Source: Actinopolyspora biskrensis (GTDB taxonomy: Bacteria; Actinomycetota; Actinomycetes; Mycobacteriales; Pseudonocardiaceae). From it: a stretch of DNA of 64,000 nt. Below the pieces are notes generated by a model that was not told the origin of the DNA, did not search any database, and worked only from the letters and a program-made list of their open reading frames with translations. Shown one piece after another: positions 25,774-42,915 of this stretch (positions are counted from its first letter, which is position 1; every line of letters starts with the position of its first letter). The stretch covers positions 124,001-188,000 of the forward strand of contig NZ_JACBYW010000007.1 of NCBI RefSeq assembly GCF_013408175.1. The letters are read 5' to 3'. Both the position numbers and the translations under genes were made by a program.

Positions 25774-26064
25774 GGCTGCTCCTCGCTCCATCGTTTCGAC
25801 GTTGGATGATCGGCACTGCTTCCGCTCACTCGCAAGCGTGATCGCACTCGGGCGGGAGCCTAGCGCGATCACCGCGTCACGAGGTCGGAAATCACGTGAT
25901 CCGAAGACGCGGTGCCCCGGCACGCGCGTCGCCGCATTCGTGAGCGGCGAGGTCGAATGTCGGAGTTCACTCAGGCCGCTCCCGGCTTTCGGGTGAAATG
26001 GCCCACTCCGCGGGGCGTCCCGCGCGAAGTCTTGATCTCGTCCGAGTGGACTCCTCGCGTGTTT

Positions 26065-26100
26065 TCTTGACTTATTCCAATCTATGCGTGCCATACTGGC
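26065..26100 (+). promoter_or_regulatory. fur-katA promoter with FurA-type operator
   Basis: TTGACT (26067-26072) and CATACT (26092-26097) form a promoter with a 19-nt spacer. The sequence TCTTGACTTATTCCAATC overlapping the -35 box resembles the operator known upstream of actinobacterial furA-katG genes, as I remember it (TCTTGACT-N-ATTCCA). The Fur-like gene starts 10 nt downstream, so autorepression is likely. Confidence 0.65.
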
Positions 26101-26106
26101 AGAGCT

Positions 26107-26562
26107 ATGGCATCCAGTACGGCATCCGGTGGTCATCCCGCAGTGGGCAGCACGCGCGAGAGATTGCGTGCTGCCGGGCTGCGTGCGACCGCGCCGCGCA
26201 CGGCCGTGCTCGACTGGCTGTCGAACAATCCGCACTCGACCGCCGACCAGGTGGCCGGTGCCGTGCGGCAGGACCTCGGGTCGGTGTCCACCCAGGCCGT
26301 TTACGACGTGCTGCACGCATGCACCTCCGCCGGGTTGTTGCGCAGGATCGAACCGGCCGGTCATCCGGCACGTTTCGAGTCCCGCATCGCCGACAACCAC
26401 CACCACCTGGTGTGTCGCGCCTGCGGCCGGACCGAGGACGTGGACTGCGTCCAGGGTTCGGCGCCGTGTCTGACGCCTTCGTCGACATCCGGGTACTCCA
26501 TCGACGAAGCGGAGATCGTGTTCTGGGGCCAATGCCCCGATTGCAAGTCCGCAGCGGAGTAG
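26107..26562 (+). CDS. Fur-family redox/metal-responsive repressor
   Basis: A 151-residue Fur-family protein: an N-terminal winged helix (RERLRAAGLRATAPRTAVLD, then STQAVYDVLHACTSAGLLRR) and a dimerisation domain. The metal ligands include the HHHLVC segment, and structural zinc cysteines are visible as CRACG and CPDC. It stands 36 bp upstream of a catalase gene in the same direction. This is the arrangement of peroxide-sensing FurA/CatR repressors that control an adjacent catalase. It probably represses its own operon until its metal site is oxidised. Confidence 0.92.
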   Translation: MASSTASGGHPAVGSTRERLRAAGLRATAPRTAVLDWLSNNPHSTADQVAGAVRQDLGSVSTQAVYDVLHACTSAGLLRRIEPAGHPARFESRIADNHHHLVCRACGRTEDVDCVQGSAPCLTPSSTSGYSIDEAEIVFWGQCPDCKSAAE

Positions 26563-26598
26563 TCCACGGACACCAAACCACCACGAGGAGGAATGATC

Positions 26599-28044
26599 GT
26601 GAGTTCGCCACGGCCCACGACGACCAATGCCGGCATTCCGGTAGCCAGCGACGACCACTCGCTGACGGCAGGCCCCAACGGTCCTGTGCTGCTGCAGGAC
26701 CACTACATGATCGAGAAGAACGCGCAGTTCAACCGTGAGCGTGTGCCCGAACGCGTGGTGCACGCCAAGGGCGGTGGCGCGTTCGGCTTCTTCGAGACCA
26801 CCGAGGACGTGAGCCAGTACACCAAGGCCGCGTTGTTCCAGCCCGGCGTCAAGACCGAGACGCTGATCCGGTTCTCCTCGGTCGCGGGTGAGCTGGGGTC
26901 CCCCGACACCTGGCGCGACCCGCGCGGTACGGCCATCAAGTTCTACACCTCCGAGGGCAACTACGACCTCGTGGGTAACAACACCCCGGTGTTCTTCATC
27001 AGGGACGCGATCAAGTTCCCCGACTTCATCCGCTCCCAGAAGCGCCGCGCGGACAACCACCTGCGCGACCACGACATGCAGTGGGACTTCTGGACCCAGT
27101 GCCCCGAGTCGGCCCACCAGGTCACCTGGCTGATGGGTGATCGGGGCATCCCGAAGACCTGGCGGAACATGAACCTCTACGGTTCGCACACCTACATGTG
27201 GGAGAACGCCAAGGGCGAGAAGTTCTGGGTCAAGTACCACTTCAAGACCGACCAGGGGCACGACTTCCTCACCCAGGAGGAGGCCGACCGGCTGGCCGGT
27301 GAGGACGGCGACGCCCACATCCGCGACCTCTGGTCCAGCATCAAGTCCGGCAACAACCCGAGCTGGACGCTGTACGTGCAGGTCATGCCGCTCGAGGACG
27401 CCGCGGAGTACCGGTTCAACCCGTTCGACCTGACCAAGGTGTGGCCGCACGGCGACTACCCGCTGATCAAGGTCGGCCGGTTCGTCCTCGACCGCAACCC
27501 GGACAACTACTTCGCGCAGATCGAGCAGTCCGCCTTCGAGCCGTCCAACCTGGTCCCGGGCATCGGAACCTCGCCGGACAAGATGCTGCAGGGTCGGCTG
27601 TTCTCCTACCCGGACGCCCACCGCTACCGCATCGGCCCGAACTACATGGACCTGCCGGTCAACCGGCCCACCTCCCAGGTGAACTCCTACTCCAAGGACG
27701 GCCCGATGCGGTACAGCTACGGGCAGGACCCGGTGTACGCGCCGAACTCCTACGGGGGGGCGCACGCCGACACGCGCAACGGCAGCGAGGACTCCGCGCA
27801 CGGTATCGAGCAGGAGGTCGTCCGCGCCGCCTACCAGCAGCACGCCGAGGACGACGACTTCGGCCAGGCGGGGGCCATGGTCCGTGAGGTCTTCAGCGAC
27901 GAGGAGCGGCAGCGCTTCGTGAACAACGTCGCGGGCCACCTCTCCAAGGGCGTCAGCCAGCCGATCCTGGAGCGTGCGCTGCAGTACTGGCGCAACGTGG
28001 ACAAGGACACCGGCGACAAGATCGCCGAGAAGGTCCAGAACTGA
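26599..28044 (+). CDS. katA: Monofunctional haem catalase
   Basis: Decomposes hydrogen peroxide. The GTG at 26599 is preferred because GAGGAGG lies 7 nt before it but directly abuts the ATG at 26593; the product is about 481 residues, the small-subunit clade length. Catalytic His is in [13 protein letters not shown], the NADPH/haem-side Asn in [18 protein letters not shown], and the proximal Tyr in [14 protein letters not shown]. It is co-transcribed with the Fur-like repressor. Confidence 0.96.
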
Positions 28045-28072
28045 CGCTTCGCGGATTCGCGTGAGGCGTCGC

Positions 28073-28105
28073 GGTGGCCACGGGGTCGTCCGCCCCGTGG
28101 CCACC
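28073..28105 (+). terminator. katA terminator hairpin
   Basis: A perfect 13-bp stem GGTGGCCACGGGG / CCCCGTGGCCACC with a 7-nt loop sits 28 bp after the catalase stop. No U-tract follows. Confidence 0.75.
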
Positions 28106-28158
28106 GGGTGAGAGCCCGGGTCGGCCGGGCTCCCGCTGACTGTCGCTTCCCACCACGT

Positions 28159-28196
28159 GATCGGGCCCGGTAGTGCGCGCACTGCCGGGCCCGATC
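28159..28196. repeat. 38-nt near-perfect palindrome
   Basis: GATCGGGCCCGG ... CCGGGCCCGATC with a central AGTGCGCGCACT is a palindrome with one mismatched pair. It lies between the katA terminator and the GT87 gene and could be a second terminator or a protein-binding site. Confidence 0.7.
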
Positions 28197-28330
28197 GCTG
28201 TCGTGGGGCTGTCGCGTGGTCCGCCGCCCACCGGGATCGCGAGTGGTGGGGCGCGAGCGAAGTGGGAAAAATCTAGTTATCGGATCGAGATCGGGGTGTG
28301 AACGGGTGTTGCTGATGTAGCTTGTTGGAG

Positions 28331-29737
28331 ATGTTCGAAGGTCGTGCTGTCCTGGTCAGGAGTTCGGAACTCCCGCCGGGTGAAGAGGGATCCGATTCGC
28401 GGGCCAAGTTACACCGGTTCCTCGAGAAATACGCTCCCCTGGTGGCGGCGGTGTCGGCGGGGGCGCTTTTGTGGACACTGCTTTCCGGGGTGATGAGTCA
28501 GGAGAACTGGCCCGACCACGAGGTTTACCGCAGAGCGGTCCACACTTGGCTCTCCGGTGGGAACATACTTTCCTCGCATTCTCCGGTCAGCAATGACGGT
28601 CCGCTTCCCTGGGTTTATCCGCCGTTCGCCCTTCTGCCGTTGACCCCGCTGGCCGTGCTGCCGCTCAAACTGGACATCGCGTTGCTGTACCTGGTCAACG
28701 TGGCCGCGCTCGTGGGGACGTTGTACCTGGTGCTGCGGCGTGTGGTTCCCCGGGCGGGAGCCAGGACGGCGTTGGCGACCGCCGTCGTGGCGACGCAGGC
28801 CTCCCTGCTGATCGACCCGGTGGCGAACTCGTTCTGGCAGGGTCAGATCAATATAGTTCTTATGGGGCTCGTCGCTTTCGACTGTCTGGTTTCCGCGCCG
28901 CGTTGGCCGCGAGGAATGTTGATCGGAACAGCGGCCGCGGTGAAGCTGGTCCCGGCCGCTTTCGTGCTCCTTTTTCTGCTACGCAGGGATTTCCGCGCGG
29001 TCTTTTCGGTCGTGGCGACTTTTGTCGCCGCCACTCTGGTCGGTTTCTTGGTGGACTTCGGGGCCTCGGTGGAGTACTGGTTCGGCCGGGGTCCCGCGGC
29101 CGCGGCGTTCGGATCACCGCTGCGCGGCAACCAGTCGGTGCTGGCCGTGCTGTCCCGGACGGATCTCGCCCCGACGGCACGTTTCGTCGGCTGGATCGCG
29201 CTCTGCCTGCTGCTGGCCGCGGTGACCGCCTACTGCGCGCACCGCGGCAGTGCGCCGCTGGCCGTGACGACCATCGGCGTGTTCTCCCTGCTCGTCTCAC
29301 CGACCGCCTGGTCGAACCACTGGGTGTGGATCGCCCCGGCCATACTGCTGATGATCCTGCACGGAGTGCTGAACCGCGGTTTCCCGTGGCTGTTCGCCGC
29401 CGCGGCGGCGATCGTCGTCACCAGGGCGGCGCCGTACACCGATCTCCCGGCCGGGCGGAGCAGCATGGTCGAGCTCGGGCCGCTGGCCCAGTTGAGCGCC
29501 GCCTCCTACGTGCTCCTGGGGGTGGGACTGGTTCTCGCGCTGCTGGTGACGCTGCTGGGGCGCGACGTGTCCGCGGGCAACGTGCCGTGGCGACCCCGTA
29601 CTCGTTCGGACACCTCCGCCACGGCGGGAGGGCTCGCACGACCGGCGCGGATCGGTGGTGCCATACGGCCGCCGCGGGAGGCTCCGCCACGGAACCACCC
29701 ACGCCAGTCCGAACAGAAAACTTCGATCGGTCACTGA
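28331..29737 (+). CDS. GT87-family membrane mannosyltransferase
   Basis: A polytopic GT-C glycosyltransferase of about 468 residues. It has the GT87 motifs DHEVYRRAVHTWLSGGNI in the first loop, PWVYPPFALLPLTPLAVLPL, FWQGQINIVLMGLVAFD and VKLVPAAFVLLFLLRRDF. These enzymes use polyprenyl-phosphate-mannose to add alpha-1,2-mannose to envelope lipids, as PimE does. The ATG at 28331 may be leaderless (TAGCTT at about 28318-28323). Its stop overlaps the tail of the convergent dynamin-like gene by 7 nt. It may work on the envelope with the adjacent module, but this is only proximity. Confidence 0.88.
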   Translation: MFEGRAVLVRSSELPPGEEGSDSRAKLHRFLEKYAPLVAAVSAGALLWTLLSGVMSQENWPDHEVYRRAVHTWLSGGNILSSHSPVSNDGPLPWVYPPFALLPLTPLAVLPLKLDIALLYLVNVAALVGTLYLVLRRVVPRAGARTALATAVVATQASLLIDPVANSFWQGQINIVLMGLVAFDCLVSAPRWPRGMLIGTAAAVKLVPAAFVLLFLLRRDFRAVFSVVATFVAATLVGFLVDFGASVEYWFGRGPAAAAFGSPLRGNQSVLAVLSRTDLAPTARFVGWIALCLLLAAVTAYCAHRGSAPLAVTTIGVFSLLVSPTAWSNHWVWIAPAILLMILHGVLNRGFPWLFAAAAAIVVTRAAPYTDLPAGRSSMVELGPLAQLSAASYVLLGVGLVLALLVTLLGRDVSAGNVPWRPRTRSDTSATAGGLARPARIGGAIRPPREAPPRNHPRQSEQKTSIGH

Positions 29738-31221
29738 GCGTTGCACAGCGCGGCCAGCATCCGTTCGCAGCTGCGCTGGACGGTGCGGACGGCTTCGCGG
29801 TGCGCCCGGTCGAAGAGCGGATCGGAGGCCAGCGCCCGCCAGCGCCGGGTGACCGCCCCCGCACGTTCGGCCAGCTCCCGCGGCTGGGTCTGCGCCGGGA
29901 CACCGAGCCGGGCCTGCGGCTGGGGGCCGTGGGCGCCCAGCAGTCTTTCGGCCTCCTCGCGCAGTCCCGGGGGCAGGCGCAGCTGCCGCGACCACAGCCC
30001 GGAGAGCGTGCGCAGTTCGTCCCACTCGTGGGCGTTGGACAGCAACCTGTCCAGCTCCCCCTGGAGCTGCCTGCTGCCCGGACGGGGGTTGGCCCGCAGA
30101 ACCATGTCCACGGCCATCAGCACCGAACGCGCGCGCAGCGCCTCCTGGCGTTCCACGAACTGCAGGTGCACCGCTTCCTGCAGGGCGCCGATCCGGCTTT
30201 CGTCCAGCAGCGCCGTGCGGAGCCTGGCGAAGTCGCTCGTGCCCTGCCCGAGCAGTGCCAGGGCCCGTTGCAACCCGAACAGGCCGAACTCGCGCAGCAG
30301 GGTCTGCCTGGTATCGGCGTCGAGGTCCTCCGGCTCGCTCGCCTTCGAGAACCTGTCCGCCGACAGCAGCTGTTCCTCGAGCCGTTGCCGGGGCAGCGCG
30401 GCGAGGCCGAGCAGGGCGTCGAAGCGCCGCTGGTCCAGCGTGGCCCCGGCCTGGGCGAGCAACCCGGCGACGGGGACGACGTACTGCGCGAAGGAACGCA
30501 CCTTCGGGTCCCGCCGGTGGTGGGCGGCCATTCGCTCCGCGGTGTCCACCGAGTCGTCGCTGCCGGTGGCCGCTTCGTCGGCCCTGGACAGCGCGAGAAC
30601 GGTGTTGATCGGGGCCCTGCGCGCGACCCGCAGCTCGTGCACCGAGTGCAGGAACTGGATGTCGGTCTGCTGTGGATGGCGGGTCAGGTACAGGACCGCG
30701 TCGGCCTCGGAGAGTATCTGCGCCAACGCGGACCTGCCGGTTTCCTGCACGGCCGTGGAGGCGACACCGGGGGTTTCGATCAGCGTGATCGCCTGCAGCC
30801 CCGGCGAGGGGGACTCGATCACCAGGCTGGCCACCTCGTCGGGGCGCCAACGCTGCAGGTCGCGGATGGTGGCCGGGTCCAGCTTGCCCGTGGACATGGT
30901 CTGCTGGGTCCCGTGCGGGGTGTGCACGGTGATCCTGGGTTCGGTCCCGTAGCGGAACACGGTGTTGACCTGGGTGCGCTCCTCGGGGTCGCTCGGGGCC
31001 AGCTCGGATCCGACCAGCGCGTTGACCAGAGTCGACTTGCCCGACTTCACCCGGCCGGTCACGGCCATGCGCAGTGGTTCGGACAGCCTCTCCAACCGGG
31101 TGCGCAACCAGCCCGCGGTGCGCGGGTCGTCGCGGTAGAAGGTCATCGTCCGCAGCAGCAGCGCCCTGGCCTGCCCCAGCAGTCCCGTCGGGGAGTTCTC
31201 GCCGTCGTTCGGTGCGCTCAT
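29731..31221 (-). CDS. Dynamin-like GTPase, IniC-like
   Basis: A 496-residue dynamin-family GTPase. The G1 P-loop is GRVKSGKS (56-63), the G2 threonine lies in ERTQVNTVFRYG, G3 is ETPG (149-152) and G4 is SRAD (212-215). The rest is helical, with no obvious transmembrane segment. The ATG overlaps the stop of the upstream IniA-like gene (ATGA), so the pair is translationally coupled. In mycobacteria IniA and IniC are induced by cell-wall inhibitors and act at the plasma membrane. The role here is inferred from that resemblance. Confidence 0.88.
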   Translation of the reverse strand: MSAPNDGENSPTGLLGQARALLLRTMTFYRDDPRTAGWLRTRLERLSEPLRMAVTGRVKSGKSTLVNALVGSELAPSDPEERTQVNTVFRYGTEPRITVHTPHGTQQTMSTGKLDPATIRDLQRWRPDEVASLVIESPSPGLQAITLIETPGVASTAVQETGRSALAQILSEADAVLYLTRHPQQTDIQFLHSVHELRVARRAPINTVLALSRADEAATGSDDSVDTAERMAAHHRRDPKVRSFAQYVVPVAGLLAQAGATLDQRRFDALLGLAALPRQRLEEQLLSADRFSKASEPEDLDADTRQTLLREFGLFGLQRALALLGQGTSDFARLRTALLDESRIGALQEAVHLQFVERQEALRARSVLMAVDMVLRANPRPGSRQLQGELDRLLSNAHEWDELRTLSGLWSRQLRLPPGLREEAERLLGAHGPQPQARLGVPAQTQPRELAERAGAVTRRWRALASDPLFDRAHREAVRTVQRSCERMLAALCNAQ

Positions 31222-33044
31222 GCTGCTGCGATGCGGTTGGACGTCAGCGTACTGGCCCGCTTGCGCAGCACGTTGAGCTCCTCGAGCTTCTTCTTGATCT
31301 CCCTGGCTCGCGCGTCCCTGTCCACGGCGTTCTGCTCTGCCATGCGCTTGGTGTCCTGAATGGATCGGCTGATTCTGATCTGGGCCTGCTCGGTGATCCG
31401 GTTGCAGTGGTCGTGCAGGGTCTGGTGCATGTGGCGGATGGAGTCGCGTGCGTCCTTGTTGACCTGGAACACCACGTGCTCGACGTAGCGCTGCACCGCC
31501 GCGCGGGCTTCGGCCTGGCGGCGCTTCAGCCTGCTGTCCTTCTCCTCGTTGAGGCTCTTGCTGCCCAGCAGCAGCCCCGCGGATATGGAGACCACGTTCA
31601 TCAGCGGCAGTCCAGCCATCCTGGTCATCAGGCCGAACATCAGCACACCCCCGTAGGACCCGCGCAGCCCGGTCAGGATCTGGTCCTTGCGCGGGAAGCC
31701 CGCGTTCTTCGGGGCCTTGGGTTCGGGGACCCGTTGCAGCGGGTCGGGAACGGGGATCGGATCGCTGCTGGGCAGGGTCCGCACGTGCTCCCGGAGCAGC
31801 TCGTCGGAGACCTGTTCGGTTATCCGCTCCCTGCGCCGGTCCAGCCAGCCGAAGGTTTCCGCGATCGCATCGGACAGGCTCTCCTGCAGCCAGTCCTCGA
31901 AGTCGTCCCACGTGGTTCCGGGGTCCGCCTCGTCCAGTGTCTCGTTGGCCTGGTGCAGCACGGCCCAGCTGCGTTCCCTGAAGTCGTACTCGATGTCGGA
32001 GTACAGCTCCTGCACCGCGTCGGAGAGGGTCTTCTGCCAGCGTCCGGACAACCGTTTGAGGTCCTCGGCCCGGCGCTGCGCCGCCTCCAGCTCCAGCAGC
32101 GTCTCGGTGGCCGTCCGGGGACTCTGGTTGTTGAGCTCCTCGCGGAGGGAGTTGGTGATCTGGTCGATCGCCTCGGTCACGTTGTGCGCCACGAGCTTGC
32201 GGGTGAGCTGTTCGTGGGCGCTGGCCATCTCCTTGCGGAGGTAGTCCAGCAGCGGCGGGAAACCGGACTCCGCGTTGAGGTCCTGGTTCTTGTCGCGCAT
32301 GGCGCGGGAGCGGATCTTGGAGGAGACCGCGAATATCTTGCAGGCGATGCCCGCGTTGGTGAGGTGCTTGCGGTTGAGCTCGACGATCCGGCGCCAGTCG
32401 GGCACGAAGTCCGTCTTGGGTTGCACGAGTGCGATGTTCGGGCACATCGAGGTCACTCTGCGCAGGAAGTTCAGCTCGTTGGTCGTCAGTTCCTGGGTCG
32501 CGTCCGAGACCATGAGCAGCGCGTCGGCCTCCGCCACGGCGGCTTCGGTGATCGCTCCCAGCGAGCTGACCGCCCCGCCGACGGCCGGGGTGTCCATGAG
32601 GGCGAGCCCGTTCTCCAGCAGGGCGCGGGGGAGCCCGACCTCGCTCCGGCTGACGGAACGGCCGTTGTGCACGGCCCTGTCCAGTTCGTCGTGCAACCGG
32701 TCGATGGGCACGGGAAGTCTGTCGCCTCCGACGGCGCTCTGCGTGGTCTCCTGCTCGACGAGCTGTGCCGAAGGTTCGGAGGAGTGTCGCACGACGGTGG
32801 GAACGGTGGTGCTCACGTTCTCACCCGTGGCGCAGACGGGCGCGTTGACCAGCGAGTTGATCAGCTCGCTCTTGCCCTGCTCGGGTTCGCCGACGACGAG
32901 CACGAGCTGGGCGGGATCGAGCACCCGACTGCGAATCTGCCGTAATCGGTTCCCCAGATCCGTCCGCTGTGCCTCGGCACACTCGGCCTCCGCGCGGTCG
33001 ATGAGTTCCACGAGTGCCGTTTCGATCACGTTGGGATTGTGCAC
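31218..33044 (-). CDS. Dynamin-like GTPase, IniA-like
   Basis: A 608-residue dynamin-like protein. G1 is GEPEQGKS (52-59), G3 is DTPAVGG (151-157) and G4 PKTD (209-212). A long helical stalk follows, then a hydrophobic stretch at about 462-494 (YGGVLMFGLMTRMAGLPLM and onward) suited to membrane insertion, and a charged coiled-coil C-terminus. This layout matches bacterial dynamins such as IniA, which bends or fuses membranes. The GTG start at 33044 lacks a clear SD. It is co-transcribed with the IniC-like gene and lies downstream of the IniB-domain gene, separated by strong hairpins. Confidence 0.88.
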   Translation of the reverse strand: MHNPNVIETALVELIDRAEAECAEAQRTDLGNRLRQIRSRVLDPAQLVLVVGEPEQGKSELINSLVNAPVCATGENVSTTVPTVVRHSSEPSAQLVEQETTQSAVGGDRLPVPIDRLHDELDRAVHNGRSVSRSEVGLPRALLENGLALMDTPAVGGAVSSLGAITEAAVAEADALLMVSDATQELTTNELNFLRRVTSMCPNIALVQPKTDFVPDWRRIVELNRKHLTNAGIACKIFAVSSKIRSRAMRDKNQDLNAESGFPPLLDYLRKEMASAHEQLTRKLVAHNVTEAIDQITNSLREELNNQSPRTATETLLELEAAQRRAEDLKRLSGRWQKTLSDAVQELYSDIEYDFRERSWAVLHQANETLDEADPGTTWDDFEDWLQESLSDAIAETFGWLDRRRERITEQVSDELLREHVRTLPSSDPIPVPDPLQRVPEPKAPKNAGFPRKDQILTGLRGSYGGVLMFGLMTRMAGLPLMNVVSISAGLLLGSKSLNEEKDSRLKRRQAEARAAVQRYVEHVVFQVNKDARDSIRHMHQTLHDHCNRITEQAQIRISRSIQDTKRMAEQNAVDRDARAREIKKKLEELNVLRKRASTLTSNRIAAA

Positions 33045-33120
33045 GGCTACACGATCGGAGGAAAAATCGGCCAGCCGGAGCTACGGAGTGTTGGGTGAGA
33101 AGTTCAACTCGAGCAACCGG

Positions 33121-33162
33121 AGCACGAGTGCCCGGGACCGCGCTGTCCGGGACTCGTGCGCT
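33121..33162 (-). terminator. Hairpin upstream of the IniA-like gene
   Basis: GCACGAGT and CCCGG pair with CCGGG and ACTCGTGC across a short loop. It lies about 80 bp before the IniA-like start in the leader on the minus strand. Function (attenuation or processing) is unknown. Confidence 0.5.
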
Positions 33163-33240
33163 CGGTGCGGTGGTGCCGCCGGGGGCGGTTCTCGTCTCTC
33201 TCCGGGGGTTCCGAGCGGGGCACCGCGGCTTCGCCCGGTG

Positions 33241-33285
33241 ACCGCCGGGTTCCGTGGAGAGAGGGGGCACACGGAACCCGGCGGT
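33241..33285 (-). terminator. Perfect 16-bp hairpin after the IniB-domain gene
   Basis: ACCGCCGGGTTCCGTG pairs exactly with CACGGAACCCGGCGGT around a 13-nt loop, 85 bp past the IniB-domain stop. It probably ends most transcripts of that gene, so that the two dynamin genes are expressed at a lower level or from their own promoter. Confidence 0.7.
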
Positions 33286-33369
33286 TCTGCCCGCTCAGGT
33301 CAGAGCACACTCACGGCGGTGCCGTGATTTCGGAAACCGTTCGCGGTGACCGCTCGGTCTCCGGGTGGA

Positions 33370-34323
33370 TCAGAGCGCGTCCAGCGGCAGGTCCGAGGTG
33401 ACGCCCCCGACGACGCCCTCGGCCTCGTTGACCACGCCGCCGACCGCGCCGCCGGCGACGCCGTCCAGCGTGCCGGTGGCACCGTCCAGCGTGTTGCCGA
33501 CCGCGCCGGTGGCACCGTCCAGCGTGGAGCCGTCCGTGACGTTGCTCGCGGTGGTGTCCACGGTGCTGGTCGCGTCGTCCAGCGTGCTGTTCACGGTGCC
33601 GAGCGCGGCGCCGCCCGCGCCGACGGCGACGTCCCCGGCGGTGTCCACCGTGCCGTCGACCGTGCCCAGGGCGCTGTCGACCGTGTTGCCGACGGTGTCA
33701 CCGGCCGTGTCCACCGTGCCGCCGACCGTGTTGCCCACGACGCCGACGGCGTTGTTGGCGACGTCGTTACCGCTGGCGACGTCGTGCACGCTGATCAGGT
33801 TGTGGGAGTCCTGGTTCTCGACGCTGCTGTCGACGTCGACGTTGGTCTCCTGACCCTGCTGCTGGTTCTGCTCCATCTCCTGGTCGACGTCGCCGTCGGA
33901 GGAGAAGTCGGGTGCGGGGGAGTTGTCCACGCTCATGGTTTCCGTCGCTTCCTGTTGCTCGTTGTTCTGTCCGGGTTCGAGCTGGTTGATCGCGACGTGC
34001 TGCGTACTCGCCGTGAACGTGTCGATGCTGGGCTGTGCGGTCCGGCCGTGTTCGGTCACGACGTCGGCCGGCGCGTAGTCCAGCATGAGTGACGAGGCGT
34101 GCAGCACCTGCGCCGCGTTCAAGTCCCCCAGGCCGGCGTTGTCCAGCGTGCCGCGTGGATCGGCGTCGAACGCCGAACGCGTCTCCGGGTTGCCGACGAG
34201 GCGGGTCAGGAATTCCTGGAGCGTCGGTTGTCCCGGGGCGGCTGCCTGCGAGGCGACCGGTTCTGGGGTGGGGAACTCGGAATCGTCTCGCCCAGTGGCC
34301 TGCTCCGGCTGTGCGTTCGGCAT
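33370..34323 (-). CDS. IniB N-terminal-domain protein with low-complexity repeat tail
   Basis: A 317-residue protein with no signal peptide. Residues about 30-90 form a small helical domain (TLQEFLTRLVGNPETRSAFD, DNAGLGDLNAAQVLHASSLM) like the N-terminal domain of mycobacterial IniB. An acidic Gln/Asn-rich linker follows. From about residue 180 there is a degenerate repeat built on VGNTV, GTVDTAGDTVGNTVDSALG and GATG units, with no Cys or aromatic residues. The ATG has AGGAG upstream. IniB-domain genes stand next to dynamin genes elsewhere in actinobacteria; here it precedes the two dynamin genes. A scaffold or membrane-surface role is only inferred. Confidence 0.85.
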   Translation of the reverse strand: MPNAQPEQATGRDDSEFPTPEPVASQAAAPGQPTLQEFLTRLVGNPETRSAFDADPRGTLDNAGLGDLNAAQVLHASSLMLDYAPADVVTEHGRTAQPSIDTFTASTQHVAINQLEPGQNNEQQEATETMSVDNSPAPDFSSDGDVDQEMEQNQQQGQETNVDVDSSVENQDSHNLISVHDVASGNDVANNAVGVVGNTVGGTVDTAGDTVGNTVDSALGTVDGTVDTAGDVAVGAGGAALGTVNSTLDDATSTVDTTASNVTDGSTLDGATGAVGNTLDGATGTLDGVAGGAVGGVVNEAEGVVGGVTSDLPLDAL

Positions 34324-34442
34324 CGCTGGCGTTCTCCTGAACTCAAGCCGTAGGTGGTCCGCTGGTAGGGCGAGTTGACCGATCCCCTTGTTCCTTGCCC
34401 AACAAGTTACGGCGGGGGATGGGGGTCGCCCATCGGGAGCCA

Positions 34443-34500
34443 CTCCTAGTTATTGGTGAACCTGTTAGGGGACTTTGATGTTTCACTCGTTAGGGGATCA
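34443..34500. promoter_or_regulatory. Direct repeats in the divergent IniB/Hsp70 promoter region
   Basis: GTTAGGGGA occurs at 34464-34472 and again at 34489-34497, 25 bp apart start to start. CTCCTAG at 34443-34449 resembles an inverted half-site (CTAGGAG). LuxR-type regulators commonly bind CTAGGGG-like half-sites, and a LuxR-type gene lies 1.7 kb away. The gap 34324-34624 is otherwise gene-free. Confidence 0.5.
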
Positions 34501-34624
34501 ATGGGACGGGTCACATCTTTGCGTAATCGAGTCCGCGCTAGGTTGGACCGGCGGGCTTTCCGGGCGAACCCCGTGTGATCGTCCTGTGACAGGAAGTGTG
34601 GCCGGGTAGGCCGGAAGGGATGGC

Positions 34625-36127
34625 ATGCCTTACGTTCTCGGGGTTCATCTGGGTACGAGCACGACCTCGGCCGCTGTGATGGGCAGAAACGGCGGACGCT
34701 GGACGCCGGCGACACCGTTTCCGCTCGGGGCCACGCGTCCCGACGTGCCGAGCGTCGTGGCTCGGTCACCGGACGGTGGGTACTTGGCGGGAGAGGCCGC
34801 CGCCGCGAAACAGGCCGAGTCACACGAATGGGGCTGTTCCGGCTTCGTCTCCGCCCTGGGCGAGGACGCGCCGCTGCTCCTCGGTGGCGAATTCGTGCAC
34901 GCGCACCGGCTGGCGGCCACGATGATCGAGTGGGTGGCCGATCAGGTGGCGCACCGGCACGGACATCCGGCCGAGCACATCGCCGTCACGCACAGCTCGT
35001 CCTGGGGAGCCCACCGGACGCACCTGCTGTACCTGGCGCTCGCCGAACTGGGACTGACCGACGTCACCCTCCTGTCGGAGCCGTTGGCCGTGGCCGTGGA
35101 CTACGTGACCAGACAACGCGTTCCGAACGGCGGGTCGATCGCCGTCGGAAACCTCGGAGGCAGTGGTTCCAGTGCCGCCGTGCTGCGCAAGGACGAGCCG
35201 CACGACTCGGACGGCGTCCCGGGCGCCGCGCGGGGGCCGGGTTCGGGGCTGGAGTTCCTCGGAACTCCCGTGGAATCGGGTGAACCCGCCGGGTCCGATC
35301 TGGACGACCTGGTGCTCGAGCGCGTCCGCGCCGATTTCGGGGACTCCGTGAGTCGCCTCGATCCGGCCGAACCGCGCGACCGCGGCGCCGCGATCCGGCT
35401 GCGGGCGGAGTGCTCCAAGGCCAAGGAGGAGCTCTCCCACCGGGAGTCGAGCAGGGTGAACGTGCTGCTTCCCGCGAGTTCGGGGGAGGTGCCGCTGGCC
35501 CGTGCCCACTACGAGCGGCTCGCGCGCCCGTACCTGGAGTGGCTCCCCGAGATGCTGGTCCAGGCGATCCAGTCGGCCTCGTTGAGCCCGGAGGACCTCG
35601 AGGCGGTCGTGCTGGCCGGCGGTCCCGCCCGGACCCCGTTGTTGCGGAATCTTGTCCAGCAGCGTCTTTACGGGACACTGCCCGGGCTGGAAACAATCGA
35701 GTCACCGGTGCGGGTGGACGGTTCGCCCGAACTCGTGGCCGCGCGCGGTGCGGCGTGCTGGGCGGCGGAGGCGCTGTCGGCGGAAACGGATCGTGCCGTG
35801 GCGGGCGCGGAGACGAGTGTGCTGATGCGCGTGGGCGCCGGGGAGGACAACTCCCCTTCCGCGTCCTCCGGTGAGTACGATGTGGACGGAGCGGAGGCGG
35901 TGATCGACGATGTGTCCTCGGATCCCACCGCCGAGCCACCGCGCCCGCCGGTGGAAGTCGAGCCGATGCACATCGAATCCCCTCCGCAGCGGAAAGCTCT
36001 CAAGGTCGTCAAGTTGTCGCTGGCGGCACTGCTGATCATTTTCGGGCTGGTGATGACAGTCATGCAGGGCTTCGGCGGAAGCCAACAACCCGCACTTCCG
36101 GGAGTAATGCAACAGGTCGGCAAGTGA
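34625..36127 (+). CDS. Membrane-anchored Hsp70-like protein
   Basis: A 500-residue protein with an Hsp70/actin-fold nucleotide-binding domain and no classical substrate-binding domain. The phosphate-1 loop is VLGVHLGTSTTSAAV (4-18), the phosphate-2 region is VGNLGGSGSS (174-183) where Hsp70 proteins normally have DLGGGT, and the adenosine motif is VVLAGGPARTPLL (328-340). An acidic disordered linker (about 405-455) leads to one C-terminal transmembrane helix (about 462-480), so the ATPase should face the cytoplasm. GGAAGGGA lies 5 nt before the ATG. It is divergent from the IniB-domain gene and followed by a LuxR-type regulator. Confidence 0.86.
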   Translation: MPYVLGVHLGTSTTSAAVMGRNGGRWTPATPFPLGATRPDVPSVVARSPDGGYLAGEAAAAKQAESHEWGCSGFVSALGEDAPLLLGGEFVHAHRLAATMIEWVADQVAHRHGHPAEHIAVTHSSSWGAHRTHLLYLALAELGLTDVTLLSEPLAVAVDYVTRQRVPNGGSIAVGNLGGSGSSAAVLRKDEPHDSDGVPGAARGPGSGLEFLGTPVESGEPAGSDLDDLVLERVRADFGDSVSRLDPAEPRDRGAAIRLRAECSKAKEELSHRESSRVNVLLPASSGEVPLARAHYERLARPYLEWLPEMLVQAIQSASLSPEDLEAVVLAGGPARTPLLRNLVQQRLYGTLPGLETIESPVRVDGSPELVAARGAACWAAEALSAETDRAVAGAETSVLMRVGAGEDNSPSASSGEYDVDGAEAVIDDVSSDPTAEPPRPPVEVEPMHIESPPQRKALKVVKLSLAALLIIFGLVMTVMQGFGGSQQPALPGVMQQVGK

Positions 36128-36203
36128 TCCCCGACGTACGGGCGACGCGGAGACGGAACGCGAAGCCCGAACACCGAACACCGCTCACCGATTGGGACCG
36201 TTC

Positions 36204-38780
36204 GTGAACCACCCCAGCGCCACACGGCCCGCGCCGGACGCGGGGTCCGCACACCACCCGTGGGAGGTCGTCCAACCGCGCGCGGCGGAAGGACTTCGGG
36301 AAGAGATAGCCGCCAATCCGTCCAAGCCTGTCACCGCCGTCGTGCGCGGCGCCGGTGGAAGCGGAAAGACGACGCTGCTGACCCGGCTGGCCCGGCTCTA
36401 CCGGGACGCGGGCGTTGCGGTGCACGATTCGGTGGAGGCAGTGCTCGCGGAGCCGGAGCCCGGGGGGACGGCGCTGTTGCTCGACGACGCCCACCTGCTG
36501 AGCGAGAGCACGCTGCGCGAGTTGCTTCCGCTGGTGTCCGGTGGGCCGCTTCGGGTGGTCCTGGCCTGCCGCCCGTGGCCGTGCCCCGAACCGTTGTCCG
36601 AGCTGATCTCGGGTTTTGGCCGCAACCGCCCCGTGGTCTCCCTCGGTGAGCTGAACTCCGGCGAGGTCGGTGAGCAGTTGCGGCGGATGTCCGGGGTCTC
36701 GTACGACCCCGGAACCGTCGAGCGGATCCGCGCGTTCAGCGGAGGAGTCCCGGCGCTGGTGAGGCACACCCTGGAGGCGTGCGATCCGCGTGAGCTCGCC
36801 GATCCGGAGGAGGTGCGGCTGCCGCGGCTGGTGCTCGACCGGTTCGGGGAGGAGCTGGACGCGCTGAACGAGCTCGCGCGCCGCTGCCTGACCGCCCTCG
36901 CCGTCGGTGGGACCACGCACCCGGTGCTGCTCGGCACCGTGCTCGGCGTGGAGTCCACCGAGATCGCGCCCGCGATGGAGGAACTGCGCGCGGCGGGTCT
37001 GCTGGACGAGTCGGACGCTCCTCACCCGTTCGTGCGAAACGCCGTGCTCGCGCTCACCTCCTGGGAGAAGCGGCTGGCCGTGCTGCGCGTGCTCGTGCGC
37101 AACCAGCTCGATCGGGCGGGGCCCGTTTCGCGGTTGATGTGCCCGCTGCTCGGCACCGATTCCGCGCTGCCCACCGATCCGGTCCTCGCCTCCGGGTTCG
37201 AGGCGGCCGGCCGCGAGGTGCTGTTCGACTCGCCCGAGCTGGCCGTGCGCATGTTCGACTCGGCCGTGGCGACCGGTTCGCCCGCCGTCTCGGTCGCCGC
37301 GCGCAGGGCAAGGGCGGTGGCCATGCGGGGAGGGCTCGACGAGGCGGTGCGCACCGCCGACCGGGTCATCGTGGACGAGTCCGCACCGGAGCGGGACCTG
37401 GCCATCCGGGTCTCGGCGACGGTCCTGGCCCACCGGGGGCTGCCCGAGCGCTCCGCGGAGCTGTGTCGCTGGTCGGCGCGTCACGTCCCCTGGGCGGGGG
37501 ATACGGCTTTCGCCGTGCTGGGGCTGGTCGACACCGGGCGGATCGCCGAGGCGGGGGAGCTGCTGCGCGACTGGCCGGACACGGGACCTCCGACTTCGGT
37601 CTCCGGGGCGGGGGAGCAGCTCGCTCGCGGGTTGTACGACTCGGTCACCGGCTCGGACTCCGAGGCGCTCTCGACGCTGGTGCGCTCGGCCTCGCTGGCC
37701 GAGCCCGTCGGTGAGGAACTGCTGGCGCCGGACACGCCCGCCGCCGTGGCGGCCACGGTCGCCACCCACTGCGGCGAGTTCGACGTGGCCGACTCCGTGC
37801 TGGGCAGGGCGCTCGCCGCCGACACGGGAGGCCCGCTGGCGCGGGAGCGGCACCGGCTTCTCGCGGTGTGGTTGCCGCTGCTGAAGGGCGACACCACGAC
37901 GGCACGACGCGAACTGGACCGGGTGGTCGACGATCCGGCCGCGCTGCCGGCCAGGGACCGGCTCGTGGCGATCGCGCTGGAGGCGGGGATCGCCAGCAGG
38001 GACAACGACATGTCGGCTCTGGAGCGCGCGGTGCTCCGGGCGCGCAAGGCCGTCGCCGAGCACCCGGCCGACCTGTTCGCCCTGCTGCCGCTGAGTGAAC
38101 TGGTCGTCGCGGGGGCGCGGCTGCGCGACCGGGACTGGTTGCTGCCGCAGCTGCGCGAGGCGCACGAGCTGTTGAACAAGCTCGACGAGCCCCCGCTGTG
38201 GGCGGCTCCGCTGTACTGGAGGGAGCTGCAGGCGGCGATCGTGCTCGAGGAGCGCGAGCGGGCCGCCGAGCACGCGGCCGCGCTCGCCCGGGTGTCCGGG
38301 CGCGGCCAGTTCGTCACCGCGCTGTCCGAGGCGGCCGAGGTGTGGCTGCGGCTGCTGGACGGGGACGTGGACGACGAGCTGGTCCGGCGAACCGCTCGCG
38401 GGCTGTGCGGGGTGGGGCTGGTGTGGGACGGCGCCGGACTGGCCGGGCAGGCCGCCCTCCGCACGACCGACCGGCGCGCGATGCTCTCCCTGCTCGAGTG
38501 CGCCCGGTCCCTGCAGGGCAAAAGTCCCCGTCCGTACCGGCACCCGGCCGACGGCACGAGCGGTGTGGGGCCCTCGGGCGGCGAGGGGGAGTTGTTGAGC
38601 GGCCGGGAGCGCGAGGTGGCCGAGCTCGTGCTGGGCGGGATGACCTACAAGCAGGTGGGGCAGCGCCTGTTCATCTCGGCCAAGACCGTCGAGCACCACG
38701 TGGGCAGGATCAAGCAGCGGTTGGACTGCTCGACCCGCGAGGAGCTGCTCACGCGGCTGCGCTCGTTGCTGGGGCGCTGA
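36204..38780 (+). CDS. Large P-loop ATPase / LuxR-type transcriptional regulator
   Basis: An 858-residue LAL-like regulator. The N-terminal NTPase has Walker A RGAGGSGKTT (48-57) and Walker B in ALLLDDAHLL. A long helical region with TPR-like character covers the middle. The C-terminal 65 residues form a LuxR DNA-binding domain (LLSGREREVAELVLGGMTYK, then ISAKTVEHHVGRIKQRL). The GTG at 36204 is preferred; a TTG at 36192 is possible. It lies 76 bp after the Hsp70-like gene in the same direction. Control of the neighbouring IniB/dynamin genes is an inference from context. Confidence 0.88.
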   Translation: MNHPSATRPAPDAGSAHHPWEVVQPRAAEGLREEIAANPSKPVTAVVRGAGGSGKTTLLTRLARLYRDAGVAVHDSVEAVLAEPEPGGTALLLDDAHLLSESTLRELLPLVSGGPLRVVLACRPWPCPEPLSELISGFGRNRPVVSLGELNSGEVGEQLRRMSGVSYDPGTVERIRAFSGGVPALVRHTLEACDPRELADPEEVRLPRLVLDRFGEELDALNELARRCLTALAVGGTTHPVLLGTVLGVESTEIAPAMEELRAAGLLDESDAPHPFVRNAVLALTSWEKRLAVLRVLVRNQLDRAGPVSRLMCPLLGTDSALPTDPVLASGFEAAGREVLFDSPELAVRMFDSAVATGSPAVSVAARRARAVAMRGGLDEAVRTADRVIVDESAPERDLAIRVSATVLAHRGLPERSAELCRWSARHVPWAGDTAFAVLGLVDTGRIAEAGELLRDWPDTGPPTSVSGAGEQLARGLYDSVTGSDSEALSTLVRSASLAEPVGEELLAPDTPAAVAATVATHCGEFDVADSVLGRALAADTGGPLARERHRLLAVWLPLLKGDTTTARRELDRVVDDPAALPARDRLVAIALEAGIASRDNDMSALERAVLRARKAVAEHPADLFALLPLSELVVAGARLRDRDWLLPQLREAHELLNKLDEPPLWAAPLYWRELQAAIVLEERERAAEHAAALARVSGRGQFVTALSEAAEVWLRLLDGDVDDELVRRTARGLCGVGLVWDGAGLAGQAALRTTDRRAMLSLLECARSLQGKSPRPYRHPADGTSGVGPSGGEGELLSGREREVAELVLGGMTYKQVGQRLFISAKTVEHHVGRIKQRLDCSTREELLTRLRSLLGR

Positions 38781-38960
38781 TCGTCCGGGAGGACCGCGGC
38801 AGGTGCGCCGTTTCCGCCGCGGCTCGCGACCTCATTTTGCTGTTTTGGCAAATGATTTTGTCATCCGGGGCTCGGTGAGGGCAGCTTGGTGCCGGAAGTG
38901 GCCACGGCGCCCCGAGGGGCCGTCGGCCACGGGGCCCCGGCGACCGAAGGCGAGGACGAC

Positions 38961-39566
38961 GTGGACGCACAGTTCTGGGACGACAAGTACGGCGGCAGCG
39001 AGCGGCTCTTCAGCGGCGACGTCAACGGGGTGCTCGCCACCGAGGTCGCCGACCTGCCGCCCGGGCAGGCGCTCGACGTGGGATGCGGCGAAGGCGCCGA
39101 CGCGCTCTGGCTGGCTCGACGCGGCTGGCGGGTCACCGCGGTCGACATCTCCCGGGTCGCCCTGCGACGCGCCGCCGCTGCCACGGACACCGAGCTCGCC
39201 GAGCGCGTGGCCTGGACCCGGGGCGACCCGACCGGCACGCCACCTCCGGAGGGCGCGTTCGACCTGGTGTCCGTGCAGTACTTCCCGCTCCCGCACCAGC
39301 CGGACCACGCCGCGCTGCGCGGTCTGCTGGCCGCGGTCGCCCCCGGAGGCACCCTGCTCGTCGGCAGCCACGACCTCGCAGACCTCCCCCCGGGGCAGGA
39401 CCGCGAGTTCGATCCCGGCGACTACTACCGGCCCGCCGACATCGCCGGGCTCCTCGACGAGGACTGGACCGTGCTGGTCGACGAAACCCGCCCGCGGACC
39501 GCCCCGCCCCCCGAGGGCACGCACCACGTTCACGACGTCGTGCTGCGGGCGCGACGCCTGCGGTGA
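38961..39566 (+). CDS. Class I SAM-dependent methyltransferase
   Basis: A 201-residue methyltransferase from a GTG with GAGGA 5 nt upstream. The start agrees with relatives that begin with a DAxxWDxxY motif; here it is DAQFWDDKYGG. Motif I is ALDVGCGEGADALWLA, followed by RGWRVTAVDIS and a later DLVSVQYFPLPH. This is the thiopurine-methyltransferase/TehB-like group, often used for detoxification; the substrate is unknown. Upstream, the AT-rich spot 38830-38865 has TTTGC ... GCAAA arms that could be an operator. It converges on the esterase gene. Confidence 0.85.
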   Translation: MDAQFWDDKYGGSERLFSGDVNGVLATEVADLPPGQALDVGCGEGADALWLARRGWRVTAVDISRVALRRAAAATDTELAERVAWTRGDPTGTPPPEGAFDLVSVQYFPLPHQPDHAALRGLLAAVAPGGTLLVGSHDLADLPPGQDREFDPGDYYRPADIAGLLDEDWTVLVDETRPRTAPPPEGTHHVHDVVLRARRLR

Positions 39567-39594
39567 CCGGCGCCGCCCGCTCGTGCGGGCGGCC

Positions 39595-39651
39595 GGACGC
39601 CGCGCGGTGGGACGTTTCGCGCGAAACCGCGCGGATCCCGGCGCGGCGTCC
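39595..39651. terminator. Bidirectional terminator between convergent genes
   Basis: An outer stem GGACGCCGCGC (39595-39605) / GCGCGGCGTCC (39641-39651) encloses an inner palindrome GTTTCGCGCGAAAC (39614-39627). It lies between the methyltransferase and esterase stops. Confidence 0.65.
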
Positions 39652-39671
39652 GCGAGCGGGGCGAGGCGGCT

Positions 39672-40751
39672 CTACTCGGAGTGCAGCGCGAGACCGGCGC
39701 GCAGCTGACCCACGGTCTCGAACATGGCCTCCCGCAGCCTGGTGCTCGCGCCGAGCAGGTTGGCGAACCCGTGGATGAGGTCGGGGAAACGCCGGGAGAT
39801 CACCGGGACTCCCGCCGCGGACAACCGGCGCGCGTACTCCTCGCCCTCGTCCCGCAGCGGATCGAAGCCGGCCGTGATCAGCACGGTCGGAGCCAGGCCC
39901 TCCAACTCCTCGTTCAGCAGCACCGAGAGCCGCGGATCGGCGCGTTCGGAGACGTCCGGCTGGTACATGTCCATGAACCAGTCCATGTCCCCGTCGGTGA
40001 GCAGGAAACCGTTGCCGAACAGTTCGCGGGAGCGCCTGCGGGTGCTGGCGTCCACGGCGGGGTAGAGCAGGAACTGCAGCACCGGGCTCTTGAGCCCGTT
40101 CGCGACGGCGTGCTGGGCGACCACCGCGGCCAGGTTCCCGCCCGCGCTGTCGCCGCCGACCGCGATGGAGTCGGGGCTGGAACCGAGGTCGGCGGCGTTG
40201 TCCAGCACGTGCTGGTAGGCGTCCACGGCGTCTTCGGCGGCGGCGGGGAAGGCGTGCTCGGGAGCGAGCCTGTAGTCCACCGACAGCACCCGGAGGTCGG
40301 CGTACTTGGCCAGGAAGCGGCACAGCTCGTCGTGCGTTTCGAGGTCACCGACCACCCAGCCCCCGCCGTGGTAGAACACGAGCAGGCTGCCGGGCTCGGT
40401 CAACCCCTCGGGGCGGTACAACCGGGCGTCGAGCTCGCCGGAACGGGTCCGGACCGAGCGCTTGCTGACGTGCACCCCGGAGATCTCGGCGCCGCGTGTG
40501 ACCTCCAGTCCCCGGAGCATCCCGGCCCGTGCCCCCTCCGGTGTCTCGGCGGCCATGCGCTCCTGACCCGTGAGTGCCTGGAGACGCAGCAACGCCTGCA
40601 CCTCCAGGGCGAGCTCCTGGCCGTCGAGCCGGACGGGGGCTCCCGCGATGCGGCGGAGCAGCGGACGCGGAAGTTTCAGCAGCCCGTGCAGCACGGCGGA
40701 CTGGGCGTGCTTCTGCAGCGAGTGCGGGATGACGTCGAGAGCTTTGGACAC
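39672..40751 (-). CDS. HSL-family alpha/beta hydrolase (esterase)
   Basis: A 359-residue esterase of the hormone-sensitive-lipase family. The oxyanion motif VFYHGGGWVVGD, the nucleophile elbow GGDSAGGNLAAV, the catalytic Asp in TAGFDPLRDEG and the His in DLIHGFANL are all present. The N-terminal 100 residues form the cap. It hydrolyses short acyl esters; natural substrate unknown. The GTG at 40751 has AAAGG upstream. It is transcribed alone. Confidence 0.9.
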   Translation of the reverse strand: MSKALDVIPHSLQKHAQSAVLHGLLKLPRPLLRRIAGAPVRLDGQELALEVQALLRLQALTGQERMAAETPEGARAGMLRGLEVTRGAEISGVHVSKRSVRTRSGELDARLYRPEGLTEPGSLLVFYHGGGWVVGDLETHDELCRFLAKYADLRVLSVDYRLAPEHAFPAAAEDAVDAYQHVLDNAADLGSSPDSIAVGGDSAGGNLAAVVAQHAVANGLKSPVLQFLLYPAVDASTRRRSRELFGNGFLLTDGDMDWFMDMYQPDVSERADPRLSVLLNEELEGLAPTVLITAGFDPLRDEGEEYARRLSAAGVPVISRRFPDLIHGFANLLGASTRLREAMFETVGQLRAGLALHSE

Positions 40752-41222
40752 GGCTGGGACCTTTCCACGATCGGAACCGAGGGTGGTGGGCGGTGACTTC
40801 CGCCCCGCCGGGGTGGCTCGGTGCCTGTTTCGGAACTGCGTACTTCGGTGGGGCGTCGTCCCGGTTCCGCCTCGGGCACGTCGCGAGGCGTCCCCCGTGG
40901 CGACCCGTGCCACGTGCCCCGCGGTCTCGCGGTGAGCCGGACCAGGACGCCGGAGCGGATCACCCGGCTCGAACCGCCTGGATGACGATCTCGGTTGGTT
41001 CTCGCCGTGTGAGGCGCACTACGCTGAGGCTACCGCTCGGTAGTGCGTGGTGCGAGACACGTGGGCGGCGATTGACTTGGAGCGCGGTCGAACCCATACC
41101 GTGGCTCGGTCGGTCCAACCGATCGAATGGTGGTGGCCTCGATGAGTGGTTACACCTTGTAGTGAAATGCGGTTCACCGGCCGGTGTCCGGTGAACACGC
41201 GGATTCGGGAAGGATTTTTTCC
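40752..41222. promoter_or_regulatory. Gap with promoter and inverted repeats before the FMN reductase
   Basis: No gene is supported. A promoter TTGACT (41072-41077), 17-nt spacer, CATACC (41095-41100) points to the reductase. A perfect inverted repeat GTTCACCGG (41172-41180) / CCGGTGAAC (41188-41196) lies downstream of that promoter and 26 bp before the start codon, a fitting operator position. Another pair, GCACTAC (41018-41024) / GTAGTGC (41040-41046), lies upstream of the promoter. Confidence 0.6.
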
Positions 41223-41777
41223 ATGGCGGTGACCGTAGTGGGGATCGGCGGTTCGATTCGAGCCGATTCGCAGTCCGAACGTGCCCTGCACGCGGCGCTG
41301 GCCGGTGCGCGGGACAGCGGAGCGAAGGTCCACGCGATAACCGGGAACGGGCTGGTCATGCCCTTCTACGACCCGGCGGTCACCGAACGTGTCACGAACG
41401 CTCGCGAACTCGTGGACGCCCTCCGGGAGGCGGACGGGGTGGTGCTCGCCTCCCCCGGATACCACGGGACGGTGTCCGGGCTGGTGAAGAACGCCCTGGA
41501 CCACGTGGAGGACCTGCGGGACGACCGTCGTCCCTACCTGCACGGCAGAGCGGTCGGATGCGTGGGTATCGCCTACGGGTGGCAGGCGACCGTGAACACC
41601 ATGCAGGCGCTGCGCTCGGTTGCCCACGCGCTGCGCGGCTGGCCCACCCCCCTGGGGGCGGCGGTCAACTCGGCCGAGACCCGGTTGGGCCCCGGTGGGG
41701 AGTGCGCCGACGAGAAGGTCACCTCGACGTTGCACACCATCGGCGGGCAGGTGGCCGATTTCGCGCTCGGACGCTGA
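41223..41777 (+). CDS. NADPH-dependent FMN reductase family protein
   Basis: A 184-residue flavodoxin-fold reductase. The FMN phosphate loop is GIGGSIRADSQSERALHAAL and the second flavin motif is LASPGYHGTVSGLVKNALD. The GYHGT and DHVED segments are typical of azoreductase/SsuE-like enzymes. It supplies reduced flavin or reduces quinones. The ATG has GGAAGG upstream. It is followed, after 171 bp, by a Dps gene in the same direction, linking it to iron or redox stress. Confidence 0.9.
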   Translation: MAVTVVGIGGSIRADSQSERALHAALAGARDSGAKVHAITGNGLVMPFYDPAVTERVTNARELVDALREADGVVLASPGYHGTVSGLVKNALDHVEDLRDDRRPYLHGRAVGCVGIAYGWQATVNTMQALRSVAHALRGWPTPLGAAVNSAETRLGPGGECADEKVTSTLHTIGGQVADFALGR

Positions 41778-41948
41778 AGGCCCGTTTCCGAGGAGGTGGC
41801 TCGGTGCCGGAGCCCGGGGCCGGAGGAACCGGTGCGGGGTGTCCGCGGTGACGGTGGGACCGGGTTTCACGGTTCGATCGCTCGGGTATTCCAGGTAGGC
41901 CCCCCGGATTCCAATGTCGTAGCGGGGGCTGCGAGGAGGTGCGACGAA

Positions 41949-42428: not shown

Positions 42429-42445
42429 GGTTCACGGCACCGCTT

Positions 42446-42892: not shown

Positions 42893-42915
42893 GGGGGCGG
42901 GCAGCGCCCGCCCCC
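42893..42915 (-). terminator. Hairpin after the Old Yellow Enzyme gene
   Basis: GGGGGCGGGC pairs exactly with GCCCGCCCCC around a 3-nt loop, 33 bp past the stop on the minus strand. Confidence 0.7.

Follow-up and report, generated by a model that had tools for sequence, protein, structure and literature searches.

What is an Hsp70-like protein doing beside the dynamins of a cell-wall stress operon, and through which sequence would such an operon be switched on? In this article, I will discuss both questions for a locus within a 64,000-nucleotide stretch of Actinopolyspora biskrensis DNA (contig NZ_JACBYW010000007.1, positions 124,001 to 188,000; hereafter the window, whose own numbering is used throughout), where an IniB-domain gene and two dynamin genes on one strand stand divergent from genes for an Hsp70-like protein (Hsp70L) and a LuxR-type regulator related to IniR. 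The iniBAC promoter is the classic mycobacterial reporter of cell-wall drugs, and the function of the operon is unsettled. The locus belongs to a known system, being this isoniazid-inducible stress operon as it occurs in Actinopolyspora, and what is new here is the Hsp70-like gene as a conserved, degenerate and membrane-anchored member, together with a proposed TTAGGGG operator motif and a hairpin in the iniB-iniA gap. The best explanation of the whole, which I hold with slightly better than even confidence, is that IniR would control both arms through TTAGGGG boxes, that IniB, IniA and IniC would remodel the membrane, and that Hsp70L would serve as a membrane-tethered adaptor.

The case begins with the company that these genes keep. 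An earlier note on this DNA had placed five open reading frames (ORFs) between 29731 and 38780 and read them as one module; the five are real, and the neighbourhood, whose absence from related genomes the note had named as grounds for giving the idea up, is kept in many families. The comparison covers 121 regions (the window plus 120 regions of up to 20 kb fetched around IniA orthologues in family, order and class samples), each scanned with profiles grown from the window proteins; the family sample holds 60 of the 64 IniA matches of at least 180 bits found besides the window, and order-level matches in G223, G240, G245 and ten family members, the class-level match in G314 and second copies in G326 and G378 were left aside. 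With six true DnaK ORFs excluded, an Hsp70-like gene is present in 108 of the 121 regions and in many actinobacterial families, alongside an IniC-type gene in 117, an IniB domain in 97 and IniR in 97, and since Pfam HSP70 has four matches at three places in the entire 4.95-Mb genome, this neighbourhood is far from chance. The exact layout, with iniC, iniA and iniB leftward and hsp70L and iniR rightward, is found in 54 of 121 regions, other layouts moving or flipping IniR or Hsp70L; among the best 80 named regions (11 of them already in the first set) Hsp70L is found in 71 and the exact layout in 43, Saccharopolyspora being one of the genera that have it. Of the 60 genomes in a family sample, 48 have an IniA orthologue (at least 180 bits) and all 48 also have IniR (E<=1e-25), which is otherwise present in two of the remaining 12, both of them fragmented assemblies. 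The IniC-IniA pairs of group f32 genomes share the adjacent dynamins and lack IniB, Hsp70L, IniR and the motif in all five fetched regions.

Within this set, Hsp70L is the member whose character is most altered. Its fold and its Pfam HSP70 score place it in the Hsp70 superfamily, and it fails as a DnaK chaperone: prok_dnaK scores 50.1 bits against a cut-off of 822.55, and the structure model consists of a bare nucleotide-binding domain (NBD) to about residue 390-399, a disordered linker (400-456), a single predicted helix and a stub of ~17-21 residues, with no substrate-binding domain. The strongest hydropathy window starts at residue 461. Asp8, Glu147, Asp170 and Thr175 are the catalytic residues of Hsp70, and at these positions (numbered as in the genome's own DnaK and read from a register alignment) Hsp70L has His, Glu, Asn and Gly, keeping one of the four, with Val at the position aligned to Lys70. 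Because the equivalents of Asp8, Lys70, Asp170 and Thr175 are replaced, the word ATPase is probably wrong for the window protein, and with the substrate-binding domain missing as well, the earlier note's reading of it as chaperone-like does not fit. Hsp70/DnaK and the atypical Hsp70 Ssz1 (PDB 4gni, 5mb9), to which identity is ~20%, differ from Hsp70L on all three counts of missing substrate-binding domain, added helix and replaced residues. Eroded forms are the majority and are found at ini loci only, while 12 of 12 paralogues sampled away from IniA have intact catalytic letters (the paralogue set has 16 rows, of which L276 and L277 are ini loci already counted, and L273 and L274 lie near IniA copies that were not fetched). 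A single origin of ATPase loss is tentative at most, because the change counts differ (two when 123 rows were placed in a quick tree; with 140 rows, four in the eroded group) and the eroded rows form long branches. A membrane helix follows the NBD in 77 of 118 Hsp70-like ORFs, and in most lineages other than that of the window a further ~88-370 residues (1262 in one ORF) come after it, often Pro/Thr-rich as if wall-spanning, with matches to Pfam beta-propeller families in L157, L158, L165 and L121. As a separate observation, a Cys-containing stretch around NERWVCL is common to the ectodomains of L115, L117, L119 and L165:2292-4409, and in the two of these that were scanned (L117 and L165) it has no Pfam match.

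Does Hsp70L then belong with the dynamins or with the regulator? In the 95 regions that hold both Hsp70L and IniR, the gene nearest the 5' side of iniB/iniA is Hsp70L in 79, IniR in 13 and neither in three, and because IniR is the nearer one in those 13, layout alone does not put Hsp70L with the effectors. I place it there because five genomes that lack IniR (G089, G101, G234, G258 and G297) keep it next to IniA/IniC, because in ten of the 79 regions it holds the iniB gap while IniR lies beyond iniC, and because two paralogues away from IniA (L265 and L266) are divergent neighbours of a 960-980-residue ORF with an IniC-like dynamin match. Possible, if on the unlikely side, is the account in which Hsp70L is the partner of IniR, a membrane-held Hsp70 fold that would restrain the regulator, as the maltose transporter does MalT, and release it upon envelope damage; the 13 IniR-nearer regions, the frequent pairing of hsp70L and iniR, which in the commonest layout adjoin each other on one strand, and the many sensor-like ectodomains behind the helix keep this account alive, and the confinement of eroded forms to ini loci also fits it. 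The same five IniR-less genomes, in which Hsp70L persists with an intact catalytic site, tell against it, as do the ten regions with IniR beyond iniC and the Hsp70L of group f15 (probably Micromonosporaceae), where none of ten ORFs (one truncated) has a membrane helix. Rather unlikely, and tentatively put, is a third arrangement in which Hsp70L would be a transmembrane pseudo-chaperone receptor, its wall-spanning ectodomain, Pro/Thr-rich or of beta-propeller type, sensing envelope damage and its ATPase-dead head holding either IniR or IniA/IniC/IniB inactive until then.

The second line of evidence is the motif. TTAGGGG occurs as a tandem pair between iniB and hsp70L in the window, the only tandem pair with a spacer of 1-18 nt in this genome. 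Over 2.23 Mb of module regions (the window contributing positions 24001-44000), 161 of 167 exact sites fall in the 420 nt that precede a module gene, a zone measured from the matched domain start that makes up 9.5% of the bases; for permuted heptamers (n=104) the corresponding count is 2152 of 17780 (12%), and the two highest-ranking permutations are the TTAGGGG motif itself in a shifted register. IniB, Hsp70L and IniR occur together in 92 regions, 76 of which have an exact site, and of 86 divergent iniB-hsp70L gaps 73 hold TTAGGGG on the hsp70L strand and one on the other. The named set of 80 regions agrees, with 72 of 81 sites upstream of module genes, and among its 69 newly seen regions 57 have all three genes, 43 of the 57 with a site. 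Tandem boxes are spaced 8, 9, 15, 18 or 24-26 nt start to start; the form TTAGGGG-R-TTAGGGG has 15 occurrences in 60 genomes, all 15 at the iniB-hsp70L gap. Looser tandem spacing was rejected as a specific signal, its 45 matches in 60 genomes (23 at ini loci) comparing with 34 for a reversed control. At 12 loci from genomes without an IniR match of 100 bits (13 of the 20 genomes searched), the motif was found at none. In mycobacterial-type loci boxes also stand before the second gene with an IniB domain, before a second hsp70L or, if no hsp70L comes between, directly before iniR; a second Hsp70-like gene lies downstream of iniR in the Mycobacteriaceae-type loci L130, L137, L144, L183 and L184, and all five have one or two opposite-direction boxes just upstream of it. 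The motif evidence is comparative, because the three matches in the window are not above shuffles; the third (20760-20766), 8 nt before an FGGY-type kinase ORF read by eye, was taken as chance. The promoter scan found no sigma-70-like site. From these comparisons TTAGGGG is probably the operator of IniR, and the two arms, having such a motif in common, are likely to be controlled jointly.

Lsr2 binds the mycobacterial iniB promoter. Could TTAGGGG serve a regulator other than IniR, or be an element of the promoter itself? I consider this unlikely. MtrA (PMC2945938) and HpoR (PMC13413693) have been reported at the mycobacterial iniB promoter, binding that is also described in PMC4564863, and no IniR operator or footprint was found among the matches listed for open-licence papers. 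However, the presence of the motif tracks IniR, its tandem spacing is restricted and the tight tandem is rare elsewhere, PMC13413693 gives for HpoR a palindrome unlike TTAGGGG, and neither TAGGGG nor CCCCTA appears in the text of the MtrA and HpoR papers.

Hsc70 uncoats clathrin, and by analogy Hsp70L could be an active ATPase that disassembles dynamin/IniB assemblies. The replacements at Asp8, Asp170, Thr175 and the Lys70 position in the window, the model without a substrate-binding domain and the majority of eroded forms make this very unlikely. That these genes are neighbours without a functional link, kept by chance or slow rearrangement, is hardly credible, for although synteny among related genomes is partly inherited, the same set recurs in many families with order and strand shuffled, its genes co-occur over 60 genomes, and within regions the motif is found almost only at these promoters.

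Several observations weigh against the preferred reading, in which IniR boxes control both arms and Hsp70L is an adaptor of the dynamin/IniB assembly. Sixteen of the 92 regions with all three genes have no exact box, and when box-less gaps were tested for weaker ones, 5 of 13 reached p <=0.05; MtrA and HpoR at the mycobacterial promoter count here too. Hsp70L is missing from 13 of 121 regions (several of them cut by contig ends). The helix is absent from 41 of 118 Hsp70-like ORFs (some truncated), so tethering is not general. IniR rather than Hsp70L is nearest iniB/iniA in the 13 regions mentioned above, so that this reverse layout is as common as the one with Hsp70L at the gap and IniR beyond iniC, and the co-directional adjacency of hsp70L and iniR fits a partner of the regulator equally well. 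The tails of IniB are also very different among lineages, with a periodicity that is nearly nil when averaged over 112 of them.

That last point bears on what IniB might do. In the window the IniB tail has a 3.7-residue (11/3) amphipathic periodicity, its hydropathy autocorrelation at lags 4, 7 and 11 each matched by 0 of 500 shuffles; a conserved amphipathic coat was rejected on the 112-tail average and the idea retained for the window tail, and because tails differ so greatly across lineages, membrane coating by IniB is drawn from this one tail. The profile of the N-terminal domain matches the LigA-type leader of SonA, a precursor of a ribosomally synthesized and post-translationally modified peptide (RiPP), with E about 2e-4 over 34 positions, and 17 of 34 members match Pfam LigA weakly, which suggests a docking domain. 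Compared with SonA-type precursors (PDB 7lts, 8t1s), IniB has a long low-complexity tail. Of 93 iniB/iniA gene pairs, 69 have a perfect stem of at least 10 bp in the gap; under mononucleotide shuffling, the sole control, the longest of 20 shuffles reaches 10 bp in 9 of 93. The presence of a stem in so many pairs, with a sequence that varies, hints at a conserved RNA element. Termination is not claimed, because the terminator scan did not pick up the window hairpin, and terminator-like sites are no commoner than in shuffles. An RNA-seq remark in PMC5760070 suggests that more IniB is produced than IniA and IniC, and the hairpin may explain this excess.

The remaining parts are familiar, and the coordinates of all of them are collected below.

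Features of the ini locus in window coordinates
Feature	Position	Strand	Basis or remark
iniC-like dynamin GTPase, 496 amino acids	29731..31221	-	Dynamin_N 63.8 bits
iniA-like dynamin GTPase, 608 amino acids, GTG start	31218..33044	-	Dynamin_N 57.4 bits; 6j72
Hairpin in iniB-iniA gap, perfect 16-bp arms, 13-nt loop	33241..33285	-	Inverted repeat
iniB-like protein, 317 amino acids, low-complexity tail	33370..34323	-	NF038175 (IniB_NTERM) 44.7 bits, cut-off 40
IniB N-terminal domain, LigA-type leader relative	34057..34233	-	Profile searches
TTAGGGG box 1, proposed IniR operator	34465..34471	+	142 nt upstream of iniB start
TTAGGGG box 2	34490..34496	+	25 nt start-to-start from box 1; 129 nt upstream of Hsp70L start
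Hsp70L, 500 amino acids	34625..36127	+	Pfam HSP70 56.1 bits, cut-off 20.6
Hsp70L predicted membrane helix codons, residues 457-483	35993..36073	+	Structure model; hydropathy
IniR-like STAND ATPase/LuxR regulator, 858 amino acids, GTG start, 76 nt after Hsp70L gene	36204..38780	+	NF038181, GerE

Domain scans and PDB searches bear out the IniB-domain and the IniC- and IniA-like dynamin assignments made earlier. The three genes lie on one strand in the iniBAC order, iniA and iniC overlapping by 4 bp (ATGA); the window IniA is a full-length orthologue of the solved IniA 6j72 (residues 11-591, E 4.2e-100), and the GTPase domain of IniC finds the bacterial dynamin-like protein 2j68 (E 3e-11) and IniA 6j72 (E 7e-9), both window dynamins lying above the Pfam Dynamin_N cut-off of 27 bits. 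The regulator matches NF038181 (reg_ATPase_IniR) over its full length (residues 25-856) with 422.5 bits, and because this is below the equivalog cut-off of 750, it is classed as a homologue of IniR in syntenic position and not as an equivalog; it has the P-loop (Walker A GAGGSGKTT near residue 50) and the C-terminal LuxR helix-turn-helix (HTH) of the wider family (GerE 47.6 bits, cut-off 23.5), with nSTAND_NTPase5 at 25.7 bits, below its cut-off of 34. A dedicated regulator is not the novelty that the earlier note took it for, since the IniR family was described in 2017 as the MalT-like activator of iniBAC, encoded beside the operon, responding to trehalose and, in M. tuberculosis, located at the iniBAC promoter by chromatin immunoprecipitation (PMC5760070); the sensor role that the note assigned is not supported here and rests on that published trehalose cue. 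With the mycobacterial system (IniR Rv0339c/MMAR_0612, PMC5760070) the window shares co-directional iniB, iniA and iniC, a nearby IniR-type regulator and a full-length IniA homologue. It differs in that the same source describes iniB*, a small gene lying between iniR and iniBAC, whereas no second IniB-domain gene was found here, and reports for M. smegmatis that iniR has a dnaK-like gene on its downstream side, whereas Hsp70L lies between iniB and iniR; no other mention of such a gene at an ini locus was found in open-licence papers. PMC5760070 likens IniR to E. coli MalT for its STAND ATPase, its helical sensor region and its LuxR-type HTH; the proposed operator, TTAGGGG, and the target, a dynamin operon, are different. 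MalT identity by sequence was tried and dropped, the PDB matches to the window regulator being HTH-bearing chains, none of them MalT, and one designed mini-binder by chance. The MalT box itself has a GGGGA(T/G) core, a point of likeness to the boxes described here.

A few neighbouring observations deserve a place. Two to three IniA orthologue matches of at least 180 bits, some maybe fragments, occur in G002, G003, G004, G007, G010 and G027 and likewise in G030, G042, G048, G049, G056 and G057, and because these fall within single family genomes, parallel ini modules probably exist there. Fur-type regulator and catalase ORFs, read by eye, adjoin the region (26107-28044). An anti-phage function was considered and set aside, PADLOC giving partial matches only (IniA to LeoBC 58.4 bits, IniC to LeoA 32.7 bits) and none for IniB or Hsp70L.

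Sequence comparison thus supplies the gene set, the degenerate NBD without its substrate-binding domain, the predicted helix, and a motif restricted to these promoters and absent without IniR, and from it I infer a course of binding, expression, Hsp70L partnership, hairpin effect and biochemical action. Damage to the wall would raise the cue of IniR, and this MalT-like cytosolic regulator would load onto the tandem TTAGGGG boxes between iniB and hsp70L, switching on iniB-iniA-iniC leftward and hsp70L-iniR rightward. IniB, with its LigA-type docking domain and in excess owing to the iniB-iniA hairpin, would coat the membrane that IniA and IniC would then deform or cut. Hsp70L would be no working chaperone and instead a membrane-tethered Hsp70-fold adaptor, positioning or regulating the dynamin/IniB assembly and, in those lineages where it has an ectodomain, coupling that assembly to the wall space.

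With a conserved but overlooked Hsp70-like partner and a concrete sequence proposed as operator, both the function of iniBAC and the operator of IniR become questions that can be tested in harmless actinomycetes. If the pseudo-chaperone receptor were true, it would represent an Hsp70-based class of bacterial envelope-stress receptors, of which Actinopolyspora keeps a stub and Micromonosporaceae a soluble form. A class-wide family in which an Hsp70 head is joined by a membrane helix to an ectodomain, and in which some members lack the ATPase residues, would put the Hsp70 fold to a new use.

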